38,035 nucleotides of DNA from assembly GCA_018303285.1 (NCBI GenBank), contig JAGVYL010000014.1:1-38035 (forward strand), written 5' to 3'. Under the pieces are notes generated by a model, which saw only the letters and a list, made by a program, of their open reading frames with translations, was not told the DNA's origin and ran no database searches. A program made the translations under genes and the position numbers. Numbering within the stretch: position 1 is the first letter of the stretch; the number at the start of each line of letters is the position of its first letter. Below, one piece after another: positions 26,901-36,637 of the stretch. This DNA is from Candidatus Woesearchaeota archaeon (GTDB lineage: Archaea > Nanobdellota > Nanobdellia > Woesearchaeales > GW2011-AR9).

Positions 26901-26951
26901 GTTTTTAAATAGTTATGTTTTTTGTATAGTATAACAAGCAAAAAACATAAA

Positions 26952-28151
26952 ATGGAGCCGCCGTTAATAAAAAGAAAATTAATAGAAAAGATTGTAAAAT
27001 ATACTAATTCTAAAGAAGCGTTGGTAATTCACGGAGCCAGGCAGGTAGGCAAAACCTCGTTGATGAAGTACCTTTTAAAAAATTACATCTCTCAAAATGC
27101 GTTTTATTTTGATTTAGAACTGCCGGGCTTATTAGAACTATGCAACCAAGGTCCGGAGAGTGTTTATCAATATCTGCTTCAAAAGGGAGCCAGGGAAAAT
27201 CAACGAATTTTTCTGGTAATTGATGAAATTCAGTATCTCGATAATCCTACCAACTTCATAAAAATACTCTGCGACCATTATTCCTCAATCAAATTAATCG
27301 TCTCTGGCTCATCCACCTTTGAAATAAAAAAGAAATTTAAAGACAGTCTTGTCGGAAGAATTCTCACATTTGAACTTTATCCATTGAGTTTTGAAGAATT
27401 TCTTCTTTTTAAAGAGAAAAAGTATAAATTAACCAAAGAAAACGTCAAAGCAATAAATGATGAGCTTATTCTGTTAGCTGAAGAGTATATCCGATTTGGC
27501 GGGTATCCGCGAATAGTTTTAGAACACTCGGAAGAAAAAAAGTACACCTTTCTTTCCCAGATAATCAATACTTACCTCAGAAAAGATATTCGAGACATTG
27601 GAAAGATAAGAGATATTTCCTCGTTCAACAAATTGTTGGAGTTGTTGGCTTCACAATCCGGACAAATTTTAAATATTCTGGAAATTTCTAATACTCTCAA
27701 GATTAACAGGGAAACCGTTTCCCTCTACTTGGAGTTGTTGGAGAATACATTCATAATAAAACGAATCTCCCCTTTTCATAAAAACTTGAGAAGCGAATTG
27801 TCAAAAAATCCAAAAATATTTTTTTTAGACACGGGGTTAATGCATCTGCTATGGCTAAAAGAATTTCCTAAAGTTATTCTGGGCAATGCCTTTGAAACAT
27901 TTGTCTTTTTAGAGTTGATGAAATTAAACCGAGAGATACATTTCTGGAGAACGACAAATAAGCAGGAAATAGATTTTATTGTTAAAAACAAAGAGTTGTA
28001 TGCTATAGAATCTAAGTACAACTTTCATAATATTAATAAAAAAAGTTTAATTTTTTTCTCTGAAACATATCCCTGTAAGATGAGGGTTGTTGGTTTAAAA
28101 GGAGAACAAGCCGGGAAGTATGTCTGGGAATTAGTGAAAGAGTTAGAATAG
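26952..28151 (+). CDS. AAA ATPase with DUF4143-type C-terminus
   Basis: LVIHGARQVGKTSLMKYLL (Walker A), IFLVIDEIQYL (Walker B), GSSTFEIKKKFKDSLVGRILTFELYPLSFEEF, C-terminal FETFVFLELMK..EIHFWRTTNKQEIDFIV nuclease-like. Confidence 0.9.
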   Translation: MEPPLIKRKLIEKIVKYTNSKEALVIHGARQVGKTSLMKYLLKNYISQNAFYFDLELPGLLELCNQGPESVYQYLLQKGARENQRIFLVIDEIQYLDNPTNFIKILCDHYSSIKLIVSGSSTFEIKKKFKDSLVGRILTFELYPLSFEEFLLFKEKKYKLTKENVKAINDELILLAEEYIRFGGYPRIVLEHSEEKKYTFLSQIINTYLRKDIRDIGKIRDISSFNKLLELLASQSGQILNILEISNTLKINRETVSLYLELLENTFIIKRISPFHKNLRSELSKNPKIFFLDTGLMHLLWLKEFPKVILGNAFETFVFLELMKLNREIHFWRTTNKQEIDFIVKNKELYAIESKYNFHNINKKSLIFFSETYPCKMRVVGLKGEQAGKYVWELVKELE

Positions 28152-28160
28152 ATTTCTAAT

Positions 28161-28772
28161 TCAACGAAGAATAATCTCTTCAGCCGTCCCCTCGTCTGCA
28201 CCCAGCACTTTGGCCAGCTTCTGCAGATCAAAAGGGCTTCTCATTGCTTCAGTATAAGCAGTAAAACTGCCCAAAAAAGTTTTCACTCCAAATTTCCGGC
28301 AGAAACGGATATTCTGCATCATCCTTCCTAAAACCAACCCTCTCTTTTCTGTCTCCAAAAGAGAAGAAAAAGAAAATGCAATAATCTTCCCGTTCCGAGC
28401 TGCAATCCGGCAGATTATCTCATCCAGACCGGATTTGCGGTAATGCAGATGATCTTTTTTATGCGTATATTCAAGATTAAAAAGTATATCTGCCGCAGTC
28501 TTCTCCAAGACAAAGCGGTTGAATTCTTCTTCTCCGGCCGGTACCAAAGCTAAAAATTTCTTTCCTTTGATTTGATCGATTTTTCTGGTTAATTTGTTTC
28601 CTATCAAATCAGCCACCAGCACCCCATAAAGCAGTTTAATTTTCCCTGCCGGTAAAATTTTTACTTTCTCCGGTGCATCATAAATTAGGACTAACTGCTC
28701 GTAGCCTAAGGCTAAAGCCATTTCAATCAGTTCCGATTCATTTCCTTCCGGAAAAACCAAATCCGTTTTCAT
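28161..28772 (-). CDS. Ribonuclease P protein component 3 (Rpp30)
   Basis: PHP-fold Rpp30: ILFNLEYTHKKDHLHYRKSGLDEIICRIAARNGKIIAFSFSSLL...NIRFCRKFGVKTFLGSFTAYTEAMRSPFDLQKLAKVLG. Confidence 0.85.
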   Translation of the reverse strand: MKTDLVFPEGNESELIEMALALGYEQLVLIYDAPEKVKILPAGKIKLLYGVLVADLIGNKLTRKIDQIKGKKFLALVPAGEEEFNRFVLEKTAADILFNLEYTHKKDHLHYRKSGLDEIICRIAARNGKIIAFSFSSLLETEKRGLVLGRMMQNIRFCRKFGVKTFLGSFTAYTEAMRSPFDLQKLAKVLGADEGTAEEIILR

Positions 28773-29679: not shown

Positions 29680-29750
29680 AAGAAACTTCGTGGTTAAAAG
29701 GTTCTGGCTTTAGCACGAAGTTTGTTGTTTCAAAACAGTGGTTTTGTTAC
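29680..29750. repeat. Palindromic element resembling the 84-bp insertion
   Basis: AAACTTCGTG/CACGAAGTTT (29683-29692/29714-29723) then CAAAAC-AGTG-GTTTTG (29731-29746), ending GTTTTGTTAC; TTAC at 29676-29679 and 29747-29750. Confidence 0.55.
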
Positions 29751-30633
29751 CAACTAACTGTTCAACAATCTGGCAAGCCCGGCAGATCTCCTGCCGACCA
29801 GCTTCTCCGCAGATCCGGCAGGCCTGCGGCTCTTTGGCCGAAGAGTATTTCTTCCGAATCGCCGGCAAAAGACCGATAAAATTTTTGACCAGCCTTTCGT
29901 TCACATTTTTCTCCGACAGTTCTAATTCATTTAGTCCATCCCGCACTTTGCCTCGGAAAGAAAGATATGCATACGGGCATTCATGATAAGAAACTTCAAA
30001 TTCCTTAAGCAGAGAATACGCCATCACTTCTTTCTCCGAGCAGAAATAAAGCGGCTTGATGCGTTCAGTAAATTTCTTATGAGAGAATGCTCCGGTCTTC
30101 GGCCCGAGATTAGCCGAAAGAGCCAGATTGCCGTTGCAGAGATTCATCAAGATGCTCTGGCTTTCATCATCTAGATTATGGCCGGTGGCAATTACATCAA
30201 AACTCCGCGATTTCTGATTAAGCAGATATCTCCGCAGAATCCCGCAGGCATAGCAGGGATGACCGCCCAGTTTTTTTAGTATCTTGTCCAAAGAAGCGCC
30301 AAACTCTTTCTGAAATGAATAAATCTGCAGAGGAATTTTATTCTCTCGGCAGAACTTCTGCAAATCGAGGAGAGTATGCGGCCGATAGCCTTTGATTCCT
30401 TCATCTATGGCCAAGGCAGTTGGTTTATAGCCCCATTTATTCAGCAGATACAAAGCTACTGTGCTGTCTTTGCCGCCGGAGCAGGCCACAACCAATTTAA
30501 TTTTTTTATTCGGCAGCAATTTGTACTTTTGGATTGTTTCCTTCACTTTACTTTCAAAGTAGGCCAAGAAGTGATTCTTGCAGAGGGCCGGAGAAGAGAA
30601 AACAGCTTTCTGGAGGCATTTTGAACAGTTCAT
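29710..30633 (-). CDS. NcsA/Ncs6/TtcA-like tRNA 2-thiolation ATP pyrophosphatase
   Basis: CSKC...LVVACSGGKDSTVALYLL (PP-loop), HPCYACGILRR, ATGHNLDDESQSILMNL, C-terminal CRICGEAGRQEICRAC Zn motif. Confidence 0.92.
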   Translation of the reverse strand: MNCSKCLQKAVFSSPALCKNHFLAYFESKVKETIQKYKLLPNKKIKLVVACSGGKDSTVALYLLNKWGYKPTALAIDEGIKGYRPHTLLDLQKFCRENKIPLQIYSFQKEFGASLDKILKKLGGHPCYACGILRRYLLNQKSRSFDVIATGHNLDDESQSILMNLCNGNLALSANLGPKTGAFSHKKFTERIKPLYFCSEKEVMAYSLLKEFEVSYHECPYAYLSFRGKVRDGLNELELSEKNVNERLVKNFIGLLPAIRKKYSSAKEPQACRICGEAGRQEICRACQIVEQLVGNKTTVLKQQTSC

Positions 30634-30949: not shown

Positions 30950-31348
30950 ATGACTTACGCAATGGCACAAGCGGAATTGGAAGGTTTTCCTGTTCAATAT
31001 GGTGAAGAAATAGTTCGGCACTTGAACAGAGTAGTTAGTGCTAGACTGAAAGATAATACCACTCTCAAAGAAATCGGAGAGGCAGTTTCGCCGTATGTCA
31101 GACATGCTTTGAATGATGATACAAAAGACGGATATACTTGGTATGGTGGGCTTTATTATGATGTTAATGGAGCAAGAGTAGCTGTTCTTTTTCCATGGCA
31201 TCAAGATTGGAAGCATCCAGAAACTCAAATGGATAGATCCATAAATGTTTATAGTGATAGAGAATTACCTCAAGAAGTTGTTGGAAATTTATTAGAGCAA
31301 ATTGCATATCAAACAGCTCTGAGAGTTCCTCTTTCAAAAAGAATCTAA
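30950..31348 (+). CDS. Hypothetical protein
   Basis: 132 aa; TATA-like TTTATATAGG near 30891-30901 and SD GGAGGTAAA before ATG. Confidence 0.7.
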   Translation: MTYAMAQAELEGFPVQYGEEIVRHLNRVVSARLKDNTTLKEIGEAVSPYVRHALNDDTKDGYTWYGGLYYDVNGARVAVLFPWHQDWKHPETQMDRSINVYSDRELPQEVVGNLLEQIAYQTALRVPLSKRI

Positions 31349-31501: not shown

Positions 31502-31696
31502 TTATCCTCCCGAAACCACAGAAACAACTTTTATCTTATCTTTTTCTTTTATTTTTTCATCAAGAGTAATCAGCTCTTTGTCTCGAATCACTAAGACGGC
31601 CGCTTCATTAATCCCCAGCTTCTCCAGCAGTTCTTTGGCCGTGCCTGTAAACTTCAGGTTTCTCTTTTTATTTTCTCGTTCTAAGTAAACTTCCAT
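31502..31696 (-). CDS. Ubiquitin-like small modifier / sulfur carrier (SAMP/MoaD/ThiS-like)
   Basis: 64 aa beta-grasp-like sequence ending VVSVVSGG (diglycine C-terminus). Confidence 0.85.
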   Translation of the reverse strand: MEVYLERENKKRNLKFTGTAKELLEKLGINEAAVLVIRDKELITLDEKIKEKDKIKVVSVVSGG

Positions 31697-31698
31697 TT

Positions 31699-32493
31699 TT
31701 ATTCTCCAACCAACGGCCGCATAACCACAAGCGTTGTCTTCAACTCTTTAAAGTTTTCCATCCGCTGGCCCACTGCCATCGCTCCTACTTTTTCTTTCTC
31801 GGCCCACGCTTCAATTTCTTTAATCGTTTTCACAATCTTCAGCTCTAAAGGAAAAGGAGAGTATTCTTGCAGCAAAGAAATATCTTTTTCTTTCAAAGCA
31901 AAAGGATAAATCGCGCAGCCCCGCTTCATCATCAACTTTCCAGCTTGCAGGCTGTCTTCATTTTCTACCAGCAAAGCCACTCTTCCCTCACAGCCGACAG
32001 GTAATCCTCCTACACTTGGGATTTTCTCAGCGAATAAATAAACACAATCCTCTTCTACTTCCACCCCTAATTCTATATCCGGCTGGTGCATATCCACTTC
32101 TTTTTTTGTTTTCGCTTCTAGATACTTCCCCAGTTCGCGGTTAATCTCAGGAGAAGTAAGGGGAAACTTCTTGTTCTGTCTCTGAGCATTGACCTTGAAA
32201 GTCTTAAATTTTAGTTCCTGCACAAAGCCCACAGCTGTCTTTTTCAGCTCGTCCCAATCTAAGGTTGCCTTTCTGACAGGAGAATAAGAAACTAAACCAA
32301 AGACTTTGGCCAAAAAAAGTAGTTCTTTATCTTCACTTTCCACTAGCAGACGGTTATGTATTTTTTTAACTATGATACTCAAGTTCCGCTGCTCGGCCAT
32401 CAGCTTGATATTGCGCATCAAAGCATCTTCAAAATGCTTCCGGTTCAGGCCTTTGAGGAAGATTTCCCCATAGCGGCAGAGGTAAAGGGTCAT
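31699..32493 (-). CDS. ThiI-like THUMP protein with degenerate/shortened PP-loop domain
   Basis: RYGEIFLKGLNRKHFEDALMRNI (ThiI NFLD), THUMP, GGLPVGCEGRVALLVENEDSLQAGKLMMKRGC where SGGxDS should occur, ...MRPLVGE* terminal. Confidence 0.88.
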   Translation of the reverse strand: MTLYLCRYGEIFLKGLNRKHFEDALMRNIKLMAEQRNLSIIVKKIHNRLLVESEDKELLFLAKVFGLVSYSPVRKATLDWDELKKTAVGFVQELKFKTFKVNAQRQNKKFPLTSPEINRELGKYLEAKTKKEVDMHQPDIELGVEVEEDCVYLFAEKIPSVGGLPVGCEGRVALLVENEDSLQAGKLMMKRGCAIYPFALKEKDISLLQEYSPFPLELKIVKTIKEIEAWAEKEKVGAMAVGQRMENFKELKTTLVVMRPLVGE

Positions 32494-32813: not shown

Positions 32814-33392
32814 ATGGCAAAGATAAAGAAAGAAGTTAAGATTCATAAGAAAGAGATTGCAGTGGTCAATATCGTAATCAGTTCTGCATTGGAAAAAGAT
32901 ATTCCTTTGGAAAAGATGGCCGCTACATTAAGCAACACTGAATACAATCCTGAGCAGTTTCCTGGATTAGTTCTTAGGATCAAAGAGCCGAAAACCTCCG
33001 CACTAATTTTCTCCAGCGGCAAGATTGTTCTCACTGGCGCCCGCACGATGGAAGATGTGCAAAAAGGCATTGAAGCCATTATCAAACAGCTGAAAAAATT
33101 GAATATCAATGTAACTATCAAGCCAGAGATCACAGTACAAAATATTGTTGCTTCAGGAAATGTGGGAATGGATCTCAATCTCAACGTTTTAGGCATTAAA
33201 TTGCCTAATACTGAATACGAACCAGAACAATTTCCCGGGTTGGTACACAAGCTTAAAGGAACTAATGCTACGTTCCTTCTGTTTTCCAACGGGAAGATTG
33301 TCTGCACCGGAACCAAAAGCGAACAGCAAGCCAGAGATGCCTTGGACAAGCTAATTGAAACCCTGAAAAAGGTAATGGCGGAAAAATCCTAA
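32814..33392 (+). CDS. tbp: TATA-box-binding protein
   Basis: Two direct repeats NTEYNPEQFPGLVLRIKEPKTSALIFSSGKIVLTGA / NTEYEPEQFPGLVHKLKGTNATFLLFSNGKIVCTG. Confidence 0.97.
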   Translation: MAKIKKEVKIHKKEIAVVNIVISSALEKDIPLEKMAATLSNTEYNPEQFPGLVLRIKEPKTSALIFSSGKIVLTGARTMEDVQKGIEAIIKQLKKLNINVTIKPEITVQNIVASGNVGMDLNLNVLGIKLPNTEYEPEQFPGLVHKLKGTNATFLLFSNGKIVCTGTKSEQQARDALDKLIETLKKVMAEKS

Positions 33393-36300
33393 TGAATGCG
33401 GATGAACAAACACGTATCTTTAAGGAATTTTTAGAAAAGTTTTATTATCCTCCCTTGCTGGAAACAGTGCGCAAGGGAGAAAATTTTCTTCGTATAGATT
33501 TTATGGAACTGGCCAAGTTCAGCCCGGAAATCGTTGAAGAATTATTAGAACATCCGGAAGAGATAATCAAAGCAGGAGAAAATGCCGTCAAAGAATTTGA
33601 TCTTTCTCATTCCATCAATCGTTTCTATCTTCGTTTTTTTAATCTCCCTGAATCCCAAAAGATCCGCTTAAGCGAAATCCGCAGCAAGCATCTGGGAAAA
33701 TTTTTTTGGACAGAAGGAGCAGTAAGAACTAAAAGTGAAGTCCGCCCTCATGTGATGGAAGCCAAGTTCGAATGCCCCAGCTGCGGCAGCATCATTTCTA
33801 AATTACAGGACAGCAAAAGTTACACCGAACCTTCCCGCTGCGCCTGCGGCCGAAAAGGCAAGTTCAAGGAAGTGAGCAAAGAATTAGTCGATGGTCAAGG
33901 TTTAACTTTAGAAGAATCTTCAGAAGATTTGGAAGGGGGAGAACAGCCCAAGCGTTTGCATGTCTTCTTAAAAAATGATTTAGTCAGTCCCCTCAATGAA
34001 CGACGGGCCAGTCCAGGAACTAAAGTGCGGGTGGTGGGCTGGGTAGGAGAAGTTCCCATCACCTTGCGCACTGGCGGCCAAAGCACTAAATTTGATTTAC
34101 TAATAGAAGCCAATAATGTCGATACAGTGGATGAAGATTTCTACATGGTCAAAGTAACTGAAGAAGAAGAGAAAGCCATCAAAGAGTTGGCTGAAGATCC
34201 TCATGCTTATGAAAGATTAATCAACAGTCTCGCTCCCTCTATCTACGGCCACGAAAAAGTCAAAGAAGCTTTAGTTCTCCAATTGGCCGGCGGAGTAAAG
34301 AAGGAGCGGCCGGATGGAGTGACTATCAGAGGAGATAGTCATATCTTATTAATAGGAGATCCGGGCAGCGGTAAATGTCTTCATCCAAGAACTAGCATAG
34401 TCTGCACTGATGGCAGTATCAAAACAATCGAAGAATTGGTTCAAACTCGCAGCGGAAAGATTGTAGAAGAACACGCATGCTGTCCAAATGCTGTATTCGA
34501 AGTTGCTGCTTTAAATGAGAGAGGCATTTTAAATTCCAATAACGCCACTCTTCTCTGGAAGCGGCCATCACCTCAAAATATGCTTTATCTACGAACTAGT
34601 TCTGGCAGTGAAATCATTGTTACTCCTAATCATCCTTTTTTTGTTACCGAAAGTGGAATCGTCTTTGCCAAAGAAGCGCAAAGCTTGACTTCTTCAGATT
34701 TTATCGCCGCTCCTCGTATCTTAAGAATCGAAGGATCTCTTCAAAAAATTAATCCGATTTATCAGTCAACTCCCGCCCATAATCGCCGCAGCATTATTTT
34801 TCCTGGGGTATGCGATCAAGAAATCGCCCGCCTTTTTGGTTACTTAGTTGGCGATGGCTATGTCGCCTTTTCTCAGACCAGCGGATGGGTCAGTTTAACC
34901 AATAATAATCCTCTGCTCTTAGAAGATTTTAAGAACATCTTACAAACGAAATTCAATGCAAAGGTTATCCTTAGGCAATCGCATAAAGGAAAATCTGCGC
35001 AGGAGTGTTATGCTACTTCTATCGAATTGGTACGTATACTTCAAGCTATTGATCCCTCTTTAATCCGCAAATCTCAAGGCAAACGAATTCCAGAAATAAT
35101 CTGTAAATCGCCTCTTTCAGTGATTAAACCATTTTTGCAGGCATTGTATGAATGTGAAGGCTCAGTTCACATAAAAAAACGAGCCATCGAGATTTCTTCT
35201 GCCAGTAAAGATCTTATCTCTGATTTAAAGATCATCCTTCTTCGTTTTGGCATAATCAGTTTCATAAATAAAAAAGAAAAATTTGCTTCGAACACGGTGC
35301 AGAAAAAAAGAAGAAGCTATTATGAATTAGTAATATACGGTGAACATACATTGGTCTTTGCTCAGCAGATTGGTTTCTTAAGTTCAGAAAAACAATCAAA
35401 ATTGACAGCCATTAGTTCCTCTGCAGTCAAGCACAATACTAATACTGATGTTATTCCTAATGTGCAGAGGATTCTTAAGTTTCTGCGCAAAAATGCTTCT
35501 CTCTTCCAAAGACAGTTAAATATTCCTCGAGGAACATATCTTCATTATGAATTGGGCGATCGTAATCCCAGTCGTTCCAACTTTCAAAAAGTAGTGGCTA
35601 AACTTAAAGAGCAGCAAGCTACTGCTGCACAGGCAATAAACCTTTTAGAAGAGTTTGCCTCTTGCGACATCTTTTGGGATAAGGTGGAGGAAATTAAAAG
35701 TATTTCTTCTGATTGTGATTTTGTATACGATCTTCAGGTGGAAGAAGTTCATAACTATATCGCTAATTCTTTAGTTGTGCATAATTCTCAACTCCTTAAA
35801 CGAGTGGGTAAGATTGCTCCCAAAGGAAGATACACTTCTGGTAAAGGCGTTTCTGCAGCCGGCCTTACTGCTTCCGTAGTCAAAGATGAATTGCTTGGCG
35901 GCTGGTCTTTGGAAGCCGGAGCATTAGTTCTTTCTAACAAAGGTTTCTGTGCTATTGATGAGATGGACAAAATGGCCAGGGAAGATACTGCCGCTCTTCA
36001 TGAAGCCATGGAGCAGCAGACCATCAGTATTTCTAAAGCTAATATTCAAGCTACTCTTCATGCAGAGACCACTATTCTTGCTGCGGCCAATCCCAAATCC
36101 GGCCGTTTCAATCCATACGATCCTCCTGCCCAGCAATTGGATCCCGTGGCTATGCCTTCCACTCTTCTAAGCCGTTTCGATCTGATTTTTCCAATAAAAG
36201 ATTTGCCGGATAAAATAAAAGATGAAAAGATGGCGTCTCATATTTTGGGAATGCACCAAAATCCAGGAGAAGGCAAACCAGAATTAGAGACTAAATTTCT

Positions 36301-36637
36301 GCGTAAATTCTTTTCTTATATCCGCCAGCATTGCAAGCCCCAGCTTACAGACGGAGCTTTGAAAGAAATAAAAGATTATTATGTCCAGATGCGCGGCATG
36401 GTCCAAGCCGATGGTGGTGGAATGCGGGCCGTGCCAATTACTGCCCGTCAGTTGGAAGCTCTGACCAGATTAGCCGAAGCTTCAGCCAAATTACGTCTTT
36501 CTCCCAAAGTCACTAAAAAAGATGCTCAAAGAGCTATTGATATGATTGATTACTGTCTGAAGGAAGTGGCTATGGACAAAGAAACAGGAGTAATTGATAT
36601 AGATAGAATGTTTCCTCTTCCCAGCGCAATAAGATGA
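33392..36637 (+). CDS. mcm: MCM replicative helicase, intein-containing, lacking fused C-terminal wHTH
   Basis: Zn motif CPSCG...CACG, GDPGSGK|SQLLK Walker A split by intein, CAIDEMDKM Walker B, LLSRFDLIFPI Arg finger. Confidence 0.97.
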   Translation: MNADEQTRIFKEFLEKFYYPPLLETVRKGENFLRIDFMELAKFSPEIVEELLEHPEEIIKAGENAVKEFDLSHSINRFYLRFFNLPESQKIRLSEIRSKHLGKFFWTEGAVRTKSEVRPHVMEAKFECPSCGSIISKLQDSKSYTEPSRCACGRKGKFKEVSKELVDGQGLTLEESSEDLEGGEQPKRLHVFLKNDLVSPLNERRASPGTKVRVVGWVGEVPITLRTGGQSTKFDLLIEANNVDTVDEDFYMVKVTEEEEKAIKELAEDPHAYERLINSLAPSIYGHEKVKEALVLQLAGGVKKERPDGVTIRGDSHILLIGDPGSGKCLHPRTSIVCTDGSIKTIEELVQTRSGKIVEEHACCPNAVFEVAALNERGILNSNNATLLWKRPSPQNMLYLRTSSGSEIIVTPNHPFFVTESGIVFAKEAQSLTSSDFIAAPRILRIEGSLQKINPIYQSTPAHNRRSIIFPGVCDQEIARLFGYLVGDGYVAFSQTSGWVSLTNNNPLLLEDFKNILQTKFNAKVILRQSHKGKSAQECYATSIELVRILQAIDPSLIRKSQGKRIPEIICKSPLSVIKPFLQALYECEGSVHIKKRAIEISSASKDLISDLKIILLRFGIISFINKKEKFASNTVQKKRRSYYELVIYGEHTLVFAQQIGFLSSEKQSKLTAISSSAVKHNTNTDVIPNVQRILKFLRKNASLFQRQLNIPRGTYLHYELGDRNPSRSNFQKVVAKLKEQQATAAQAINLLEEFASCDIFWDKVEEIKSISSDCDFVYDLQVEEVHNYIANSLVVHNSQLLKRVGKIAPKGRYTSGKGVSAAGLTASVVKDELLGGWSLEAGALVLSNKGFCAIDEMDKMAREDTAALHEAMEQQTISISKANIQATLHAETTILAAANPKSGRFNPYDPPAQQLDPVAMPSTLLSRFDLIFPIKDLPDKIKDEKMASHILGMHQNPGEGKPELETKFLRKFFSYIRQHCKPQLTDGALKEIKDYYVQMRGMVQADGGGMRAVPITARQLEALTRLAEASAKLRLSPKVTKKDAQRAIDMIDYCLKEVAMDKETGVIDIDRMFPLPSAIR
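34376..35785 (+). other. Intein (470 aa) with LAGLIDADG homing endonuclease, in MCM P-loop
   Basis: Begins CLHPRTSIVCTDG after GDPGSGK, ends NYIANSLVVHN before S; endonuclease motifs LFGYLVGDGYV and FLQALYECEGSV. Confidence 0.95.

Follow-up and report, generated by a model that had tools for sequence, protein, structure and literature searches.

The minus-strand gene at 31699..32493 of the window (the whole 38,035-nucleotide stretch of DNA analysed, which is contig C35 of a woesearchaeal genome, G000, of ~1 Mb in 50 contigs and 93.6% complete) probably encodes the tRNA-binding pseudoenzyme subunit of a two-gene, or split, tRNA 4-thiouridine-8 (s4U8) synthase. Its catalytic counterpart, a ThiI PP-loop domain that stands alone, is encoded on another contig of that genome. 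What we observed directly is that the two proteins complement each other, that they occur together, that each keeps residues which the other lacks, and what folds are predicted for them and in which operons they lie; from homology with ThiI, the dead half would pair physically with the stand-alone half, and U8 would be the target.

The ThiI-like protein of the window

The 264-aa product begins with a ferredoxin-like domain (NFLD; residues 4–71, 32281..32484, minus strand; Pfam ThiI_fer PF22025, E 2e-16), followed by a THUMP domain (residues 79–154, 32032..32259, minus strand; PF02926, E 1e-16). Both score above the Pfam cut-off, in agreement with the initial annotation of this DNA, which had described these parts as retained. 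In a profile search, the ThiI equivalog TIGR00342 matched residues 5–202 (E 1e-44) with 153.2 bits against a cut-off of 264.5, and, taken alone and without the PP-loop motif SGGxDS, the protein does not count as a ThiI. At the PP-loop site, motif comparison revealed VENEDS (residues 176–181, 31951..31968, minus strand), the replacement that had been read from the sequence at the outset. The alignment placed the GG of the GGLP linker at residues 162–163 (32005..32010, minus strand), with G163 equivalent to Gly168 of Thermotoga ThiI (TmThiI).

The C-terminus had also been described as cut. It is indeed shorter than in ThiI, but it is not merely truncated: by predicted fold and alignment, residues 162–264 (31702..32010, minus strand) form a compact, shortened, catalytically dead alpha/beta domain of PPase type. 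The model of the dead half has a mean pLDDT of 94.5, rising to ~97 over most of this domain, which we infer to be a dimerisation module. The best match of the model among solved folds is Pyrococcus horikoshii PH1313 (PDB 1vbk; TM 0.89), which is also the best PDB sequence match (E 2e-29). Like PH1313, the window protein joins an NFLD and a THUMP domain to a shortened PPase fold that lacks the PP-loop motif, and it is a protein of the PH1313 type. The survey of homologues that the initial annotation had proposed returned ~65 distinct proteins across the phylum with this same form, all without the PP-loop motif.

The stand-alone catalytic half

The initial annotation had asked whether an intact ThiI lies elsewhere in the genome; we found no complete ThiI, only a catalytic half. 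The catalytic domain of ThiI (PF02568) is matched just once in the genome, on another contig (G000:C30:15661-16221), and the stand-alone PP-loop ORF (locus L001, 1468-2127) encodes 219 aa with PF02568 as its only domain. This protein carries LLSGGFDS and a cysteine aligned to the catalytic Cys344, and the model of the stand-alone half matches the PPase domain of TmThiI with a TM of 0.89 and an rmsd of 1.5 Å. The motif S[GS]GxDS was present in none of the short proteins, in all full-length ones and in 23 of 24 stand-alone proteins, the 24th having SDGIDS.

We aligned 30 complete, 65 dead and 44 stand-alone proteins together and compared the conserved positions of ThiI, using TmThiI numbering. 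All 65 dead halves keep the RNA-binding Lys17 (K14 in the window protein) and, in the linker, Gly168 and Pro170. Ser182, Gly184, Asp186, Gln291 and Lys320 are each kept in all 44 stand-alone halves, which also keep Gln295, Asp319 (42/44) and Cys344 (35/44). The PP-loop residues, Gln291, Gln295, Asp319, Lys320 and Cys344 are lost or variable in the dead halves, and the column of Cys344 is absent from every one of the 65. Thus, each conserved catalytic or RNA-binding position of ThiI is found in one or the other protein. In the TmThiI crystal dimer, Gly168 contacts Asp319 of the other subunit across the interface (PMC4041423); judged from the alignment, each of these residues survives in the half that would need it for a split in trans.

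The two halves also occur together. In a sample of 279 genomes from across the phylum, both halves were present in 71, the dead one alone in 6, the catalytic one alone in 8 and neither in the rest (p ~1e-49, with genomes counted individually and shared ancestry ignored), and the pair spans 29 families, as defined by family codes. Complete ThiI was found in 55 of the 279 genomes, and alongside the split pair in only one of them, so that the two forms are almost mutually exclusive. The dead half is associated with the stand-alone PP-loop domain with a phi of 0.88, compared with 0.18 for NcsA and 0.06 for E1. Hence, of the initial proposal that the dead ThiI is an RNA-binding adaptor for chemistry done by another enzyme, the kind of role stands, and NcsA as the partner gives way to the stand-alone domain. 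The window's genome and 60 relatives fall mostly into three classes, having a short dead ThiI with a stand-alone domain, a complete ThiI, or neither; 31 of these genomes have the dead form, and 30 of the 31 also have the stand-alone domain, which is a contig-edge fragment in G023 and is missing from G012. The 14 genomes with a single half in the larger sample are perhaps explained by incompleteness. In G016, the start of the dead gene runs into a frame of ~24,000 codons, and NcsA, the ubiquitin-fold protein (UBL) and E1 are missing as well; we read the long frame as a run of N, and some of the one-half cases would then reflect missing data.

A split enzyme of this kind has a structural precedent in the ThiI homodimer. 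In the crystal, each tRNA is bound at its acceptor stem and CCA end by the NFLD and THUMP domains of one subunit, which bring U8 close to the active site of the partner subunit; dimerisation is mainly through the PPase domains (PMC4041423). Because the tRNA-binding domains of each subunit in the homodimer already serve the active site of its partner, a split ThiI can work in trans. By analogy, the dead subunit would grip the acceptor stem and the CCA end with its ferredoxin-like and THUMP domains, and the separate PP-loop domain of ~200–220 aa would act as the catalytic subunit, in which U8 would be adenylated with ATP before sulfur is added. The UBL, E1 and NcsA would form a sulfur-relay neighbourhood that may feed both the split enzyme and 2-thiolation.

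Near residue 85 of the L001 protein, the stand-alone proteins show two cysteine patterns. In many other families, a CxxC accompanies the Cys344 equivalent, as in the Fe-S ThiI of methanogens; in the window's family there is one upstream cysteine and no CxxC. We dropped the idea that CxxC marks an Fe-S route cleanly separate from that of the UBL, several CxxC stand-alone proteins being from genomes that bear E1. In G105, G130, G140 and G188, in the last of which the stretch examined is cut at its edge, a free-standing ORF of 80–95 aa overlaps the start of the stand-alone PP-loop gene (L147 866-1120, L151 50-310, L152 98-364 and L157 1-288). These ORFs are homologous to the C-terminal domain of E1 from their own genome and match that domain only (reference L122 2983-4155, residues 313–390). 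They matched no Pfam or NCBIfam family of their own, and may represent a third component or a docking module.

Gene neighbourhoods and possible sulfur supply

In the window, the dead gene is followed after a 2-nt gap (31697-31698) by a 64-aa ThiS/SAMP2-like UBL (31502..31696, minus strand) that ends in the C-terminal Gly-Gly of VSGG. It matches ThiS (PF02597; 34.9 bits against a cut-off of 22.5, E 2e-8) and is below the cut-off of the SAMP2 equivalog NF041919 (23.3 against 70 bits). Located 868 bp further is an NcsA/TtuA-like tRNA 2-thiolation enzyme of 307 aa with SGGKDS intact (29710..30633, minus strand). These are the beta-grasp protein and the intact PP-loop NcsA of the initial annotation, at the spacings it had given. 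The latter protein passes the C-terminal family TIGR00269 (74.5 against 62.75 bits) and misses the equivalog cut-offs of both NcsA (187.7/450 bits) and TtuA (155.5/500 bits), scores compatible with specificity for either U34 or U54. Its gene is probably the ancestral operon partner of the dead half. The sporadic 132-aa ORF between the UBL and NcsA genes (30950..31348, plus strand) is not part of the system; its only clear homologue among the 60 relatives is in G044 (62% identity, E 2e-49), and it is probably a lateral arrival. Elsewhere in the window are an MCM helicase gene (33392-36637, plus strand) with an intein that contains LAGLIDADG domains and is inserted at the Walker A motif, a likely RNase P subunit p30 (28161-28772, minus strand; 33.2 bits against a cut-off of 35) and an AAA_14/DUF4143 ATPase (26922-28151, plus strand).

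The link between dead ThiI and UBL that had been seen in the window proved to be conserved. Co-directional dead ThiI–UBL–NcsA operons, often with overlaps of a few bases, were found in 11 genomes from nine families (the window's own, where the operon is interrupted, and G040, G043, G109, G120, G150, G155, G165, G180, G217 and G248), and NcsA lies within ~5 kb of the dead gene in 28 of the 31 genomes with the dead form among the window's genome and its relatives. The usual layout in the window's own family is a UBL–NcsA–E1 operon convergent with the dead gene. The two halves themselves are mostly unlinked, and are 3–4 kb apart in G255 and G077. The stand-alone gene has E1 0–1.3 kb upstream on the same strand in eight genomes (G082, G102, G109, G165, G180, G182, G217 and G251), a UBL directly 3′ of it in G134, and NcsA nearby in G082, G090, G102 and G251. 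In G071, G092, G094 and G099, the slot next to NcsA that the dead gene otherwise takes is filled by complete ThiI; two of these genomes have a UBL there as well, and G092 has E1 nearby. In L126 (G099) and L128 (G092), the UBL gene directly precedes complete ThiI with gaps of 1–5 nt, NcsA follows, and the G092 cluster includes E1; this arrangement supports a link between the UBL and s4U8 beyond the split form. ThiI, UBL and NcsA were probably together in an ancestral cluster, perhaps with E1, and the dead half stayed in its slot. Such a cluster explains the linkage of the dead half and NcsA without the dead half serving NcsA.

That linkage is what recommends the alternative, close to the proposal of the initial annotation, in which dead ThiI is a tRNA-binding adaptor for NcsA/TtuA in 2-thiouridine formation, with the UBL as sulfur donor. 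We consider it unlikely: however strong the synteny, in both the 28 of 31 genomes and the 11 operons, 99 genomes have NcsA without any ThiI, dead ThiI follows NcsA with a phi of just 0.18, and G089, G219, G247 and G255 hold both halves with no NcsA match. Complete ThiI in the same slot indicates, moreover, that the dead half could owe this linkage to the ancestral enzyme, and on the phyletic pattern we set aside NcsA adaptor as the main role of the dead protein. A broader version, in which dead ThiI is a tRNA-docking platform shared by the stand-alone domain and NcsA, with one UBL feeding both, would accommodate the links of the dead half to both enzymes, and a few NcsA genes that lie near a stand-alone gene (the four genomes named above) speak for it too. 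However, NcsA functions without a THUMP partner in other archaea, and we hold a shared platform to be quite improbable.

The C-terminal GG of the neighbouring UBL would suit a role for dead ThiI as target or adaptor of UBL protein conjugation (SAMPylation), yet no E1 was detected in 35 of the 77 genomes with the dead protein, and we regard this role as very improbable. Lastly, the loss of the catalytic motif and the reduced length might indicate a pseudogene or neutral ThiI remnant. This is scarcely credible, and conservation refutes the decay that the initial annotation had considered: in the homologues examined, the frame is open at 37–46% identity to the window protein, 23 columns are invariant in an alignment of 29 members, and the protein co-occurs tightly with the catalytic half.

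The sulfur supply of the split ThiI bears on a wider question, as the literature names no known donor of the sulfur in archaeal s4U8 (PMC5372739). From operon structure, the UBL is a reasonable candidate donor for the split ThiI. We tentatively suggest a specific route, which we hold to be possible rather than probable: the split ThiI may take sulfur from a UBL thiocarboxylate made by E1, with the dead subunit bringing the tRNA and the chemistry falling to the PP-loop subunit, whose gene often lies next to that of E1. Because no E1 was detected in 30 of the genomes that have both halves, the E1/UBL route is unlikely to be the only sulfur donor, and UBL and NcsA are not essential to the split enzyme. 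The window's genome also has three PF00266 matches (aminotransferases of the cysteine desulfurase family).

Relation to known systems and origin of the halves

Taken together, the two proteins contain all the parts of ThiI/TtuI, in the trans arrangement of the homodimer (PMC4041423). The split form differs in having two genes and one dead subunit, so a 1:1 heterodimer would contain a single live PPase domain. Heterodimers of an inactive and an active paralogue are familiar in tRNA modification from Ncs2/Ncs6 and ADAT3/ADAT2, although these are other enzymes acting at other tRNA positions. Tan1/THUMPD1 with Kre33/NAT10 is likewise a case of a non-catalytic THUMP protein assisting a separate tRNA-modifying enzyme (PMC9957541), but there the reaction is acetylation and the catalytic partner is unrelated. 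Haloferax 2-thiolation by SAMP2, UbaA and NcsA involves UBL, E1 and NcsA homologues that are present here too, often in one operon, but it is not described as including ThiI. Searches of the open-licence literature turned up no account of a split ThiI, which is weak evidence of absence.

The split ThiI apparently places two jobs of ThiI on separate genes and keeps the dead catalytic domain, and so puts the trans model to a natural test. The split also predicts a likely function for PH1313, whose structure was released in 2005 and whose activity a 2023 review lists as unconfirmed (PMC9957541). Each half alone resembles a broken ThiI, and recognising the pair corrects the annotation of many archaeal genomes. 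Through the operons that include E1 and UBL, the identity of the archaeal s4U8 sulfur donor becomes directly testable, and a UBL-dependent route, if true, would identify that donor in at least some archaea.

As to origin, one duplicate of an ancestral ThiI may have lost catalysis and kept its PPase surface, and the other lost its RNA-binding domains, leaving one working site between them. The tree of RNA-binding halves is poorly resolved and weak on the number of origins. In the tree of catalytic domains, 40 of 42 stand-alone domains form one clade (SH-aLRT 99). The remaining two, L145 (G299) and L149 (G089) of family f25, group among complete ThiI, although a single clade is not rejected (p 0.27); their position hints at a second, independent split or a replacement.
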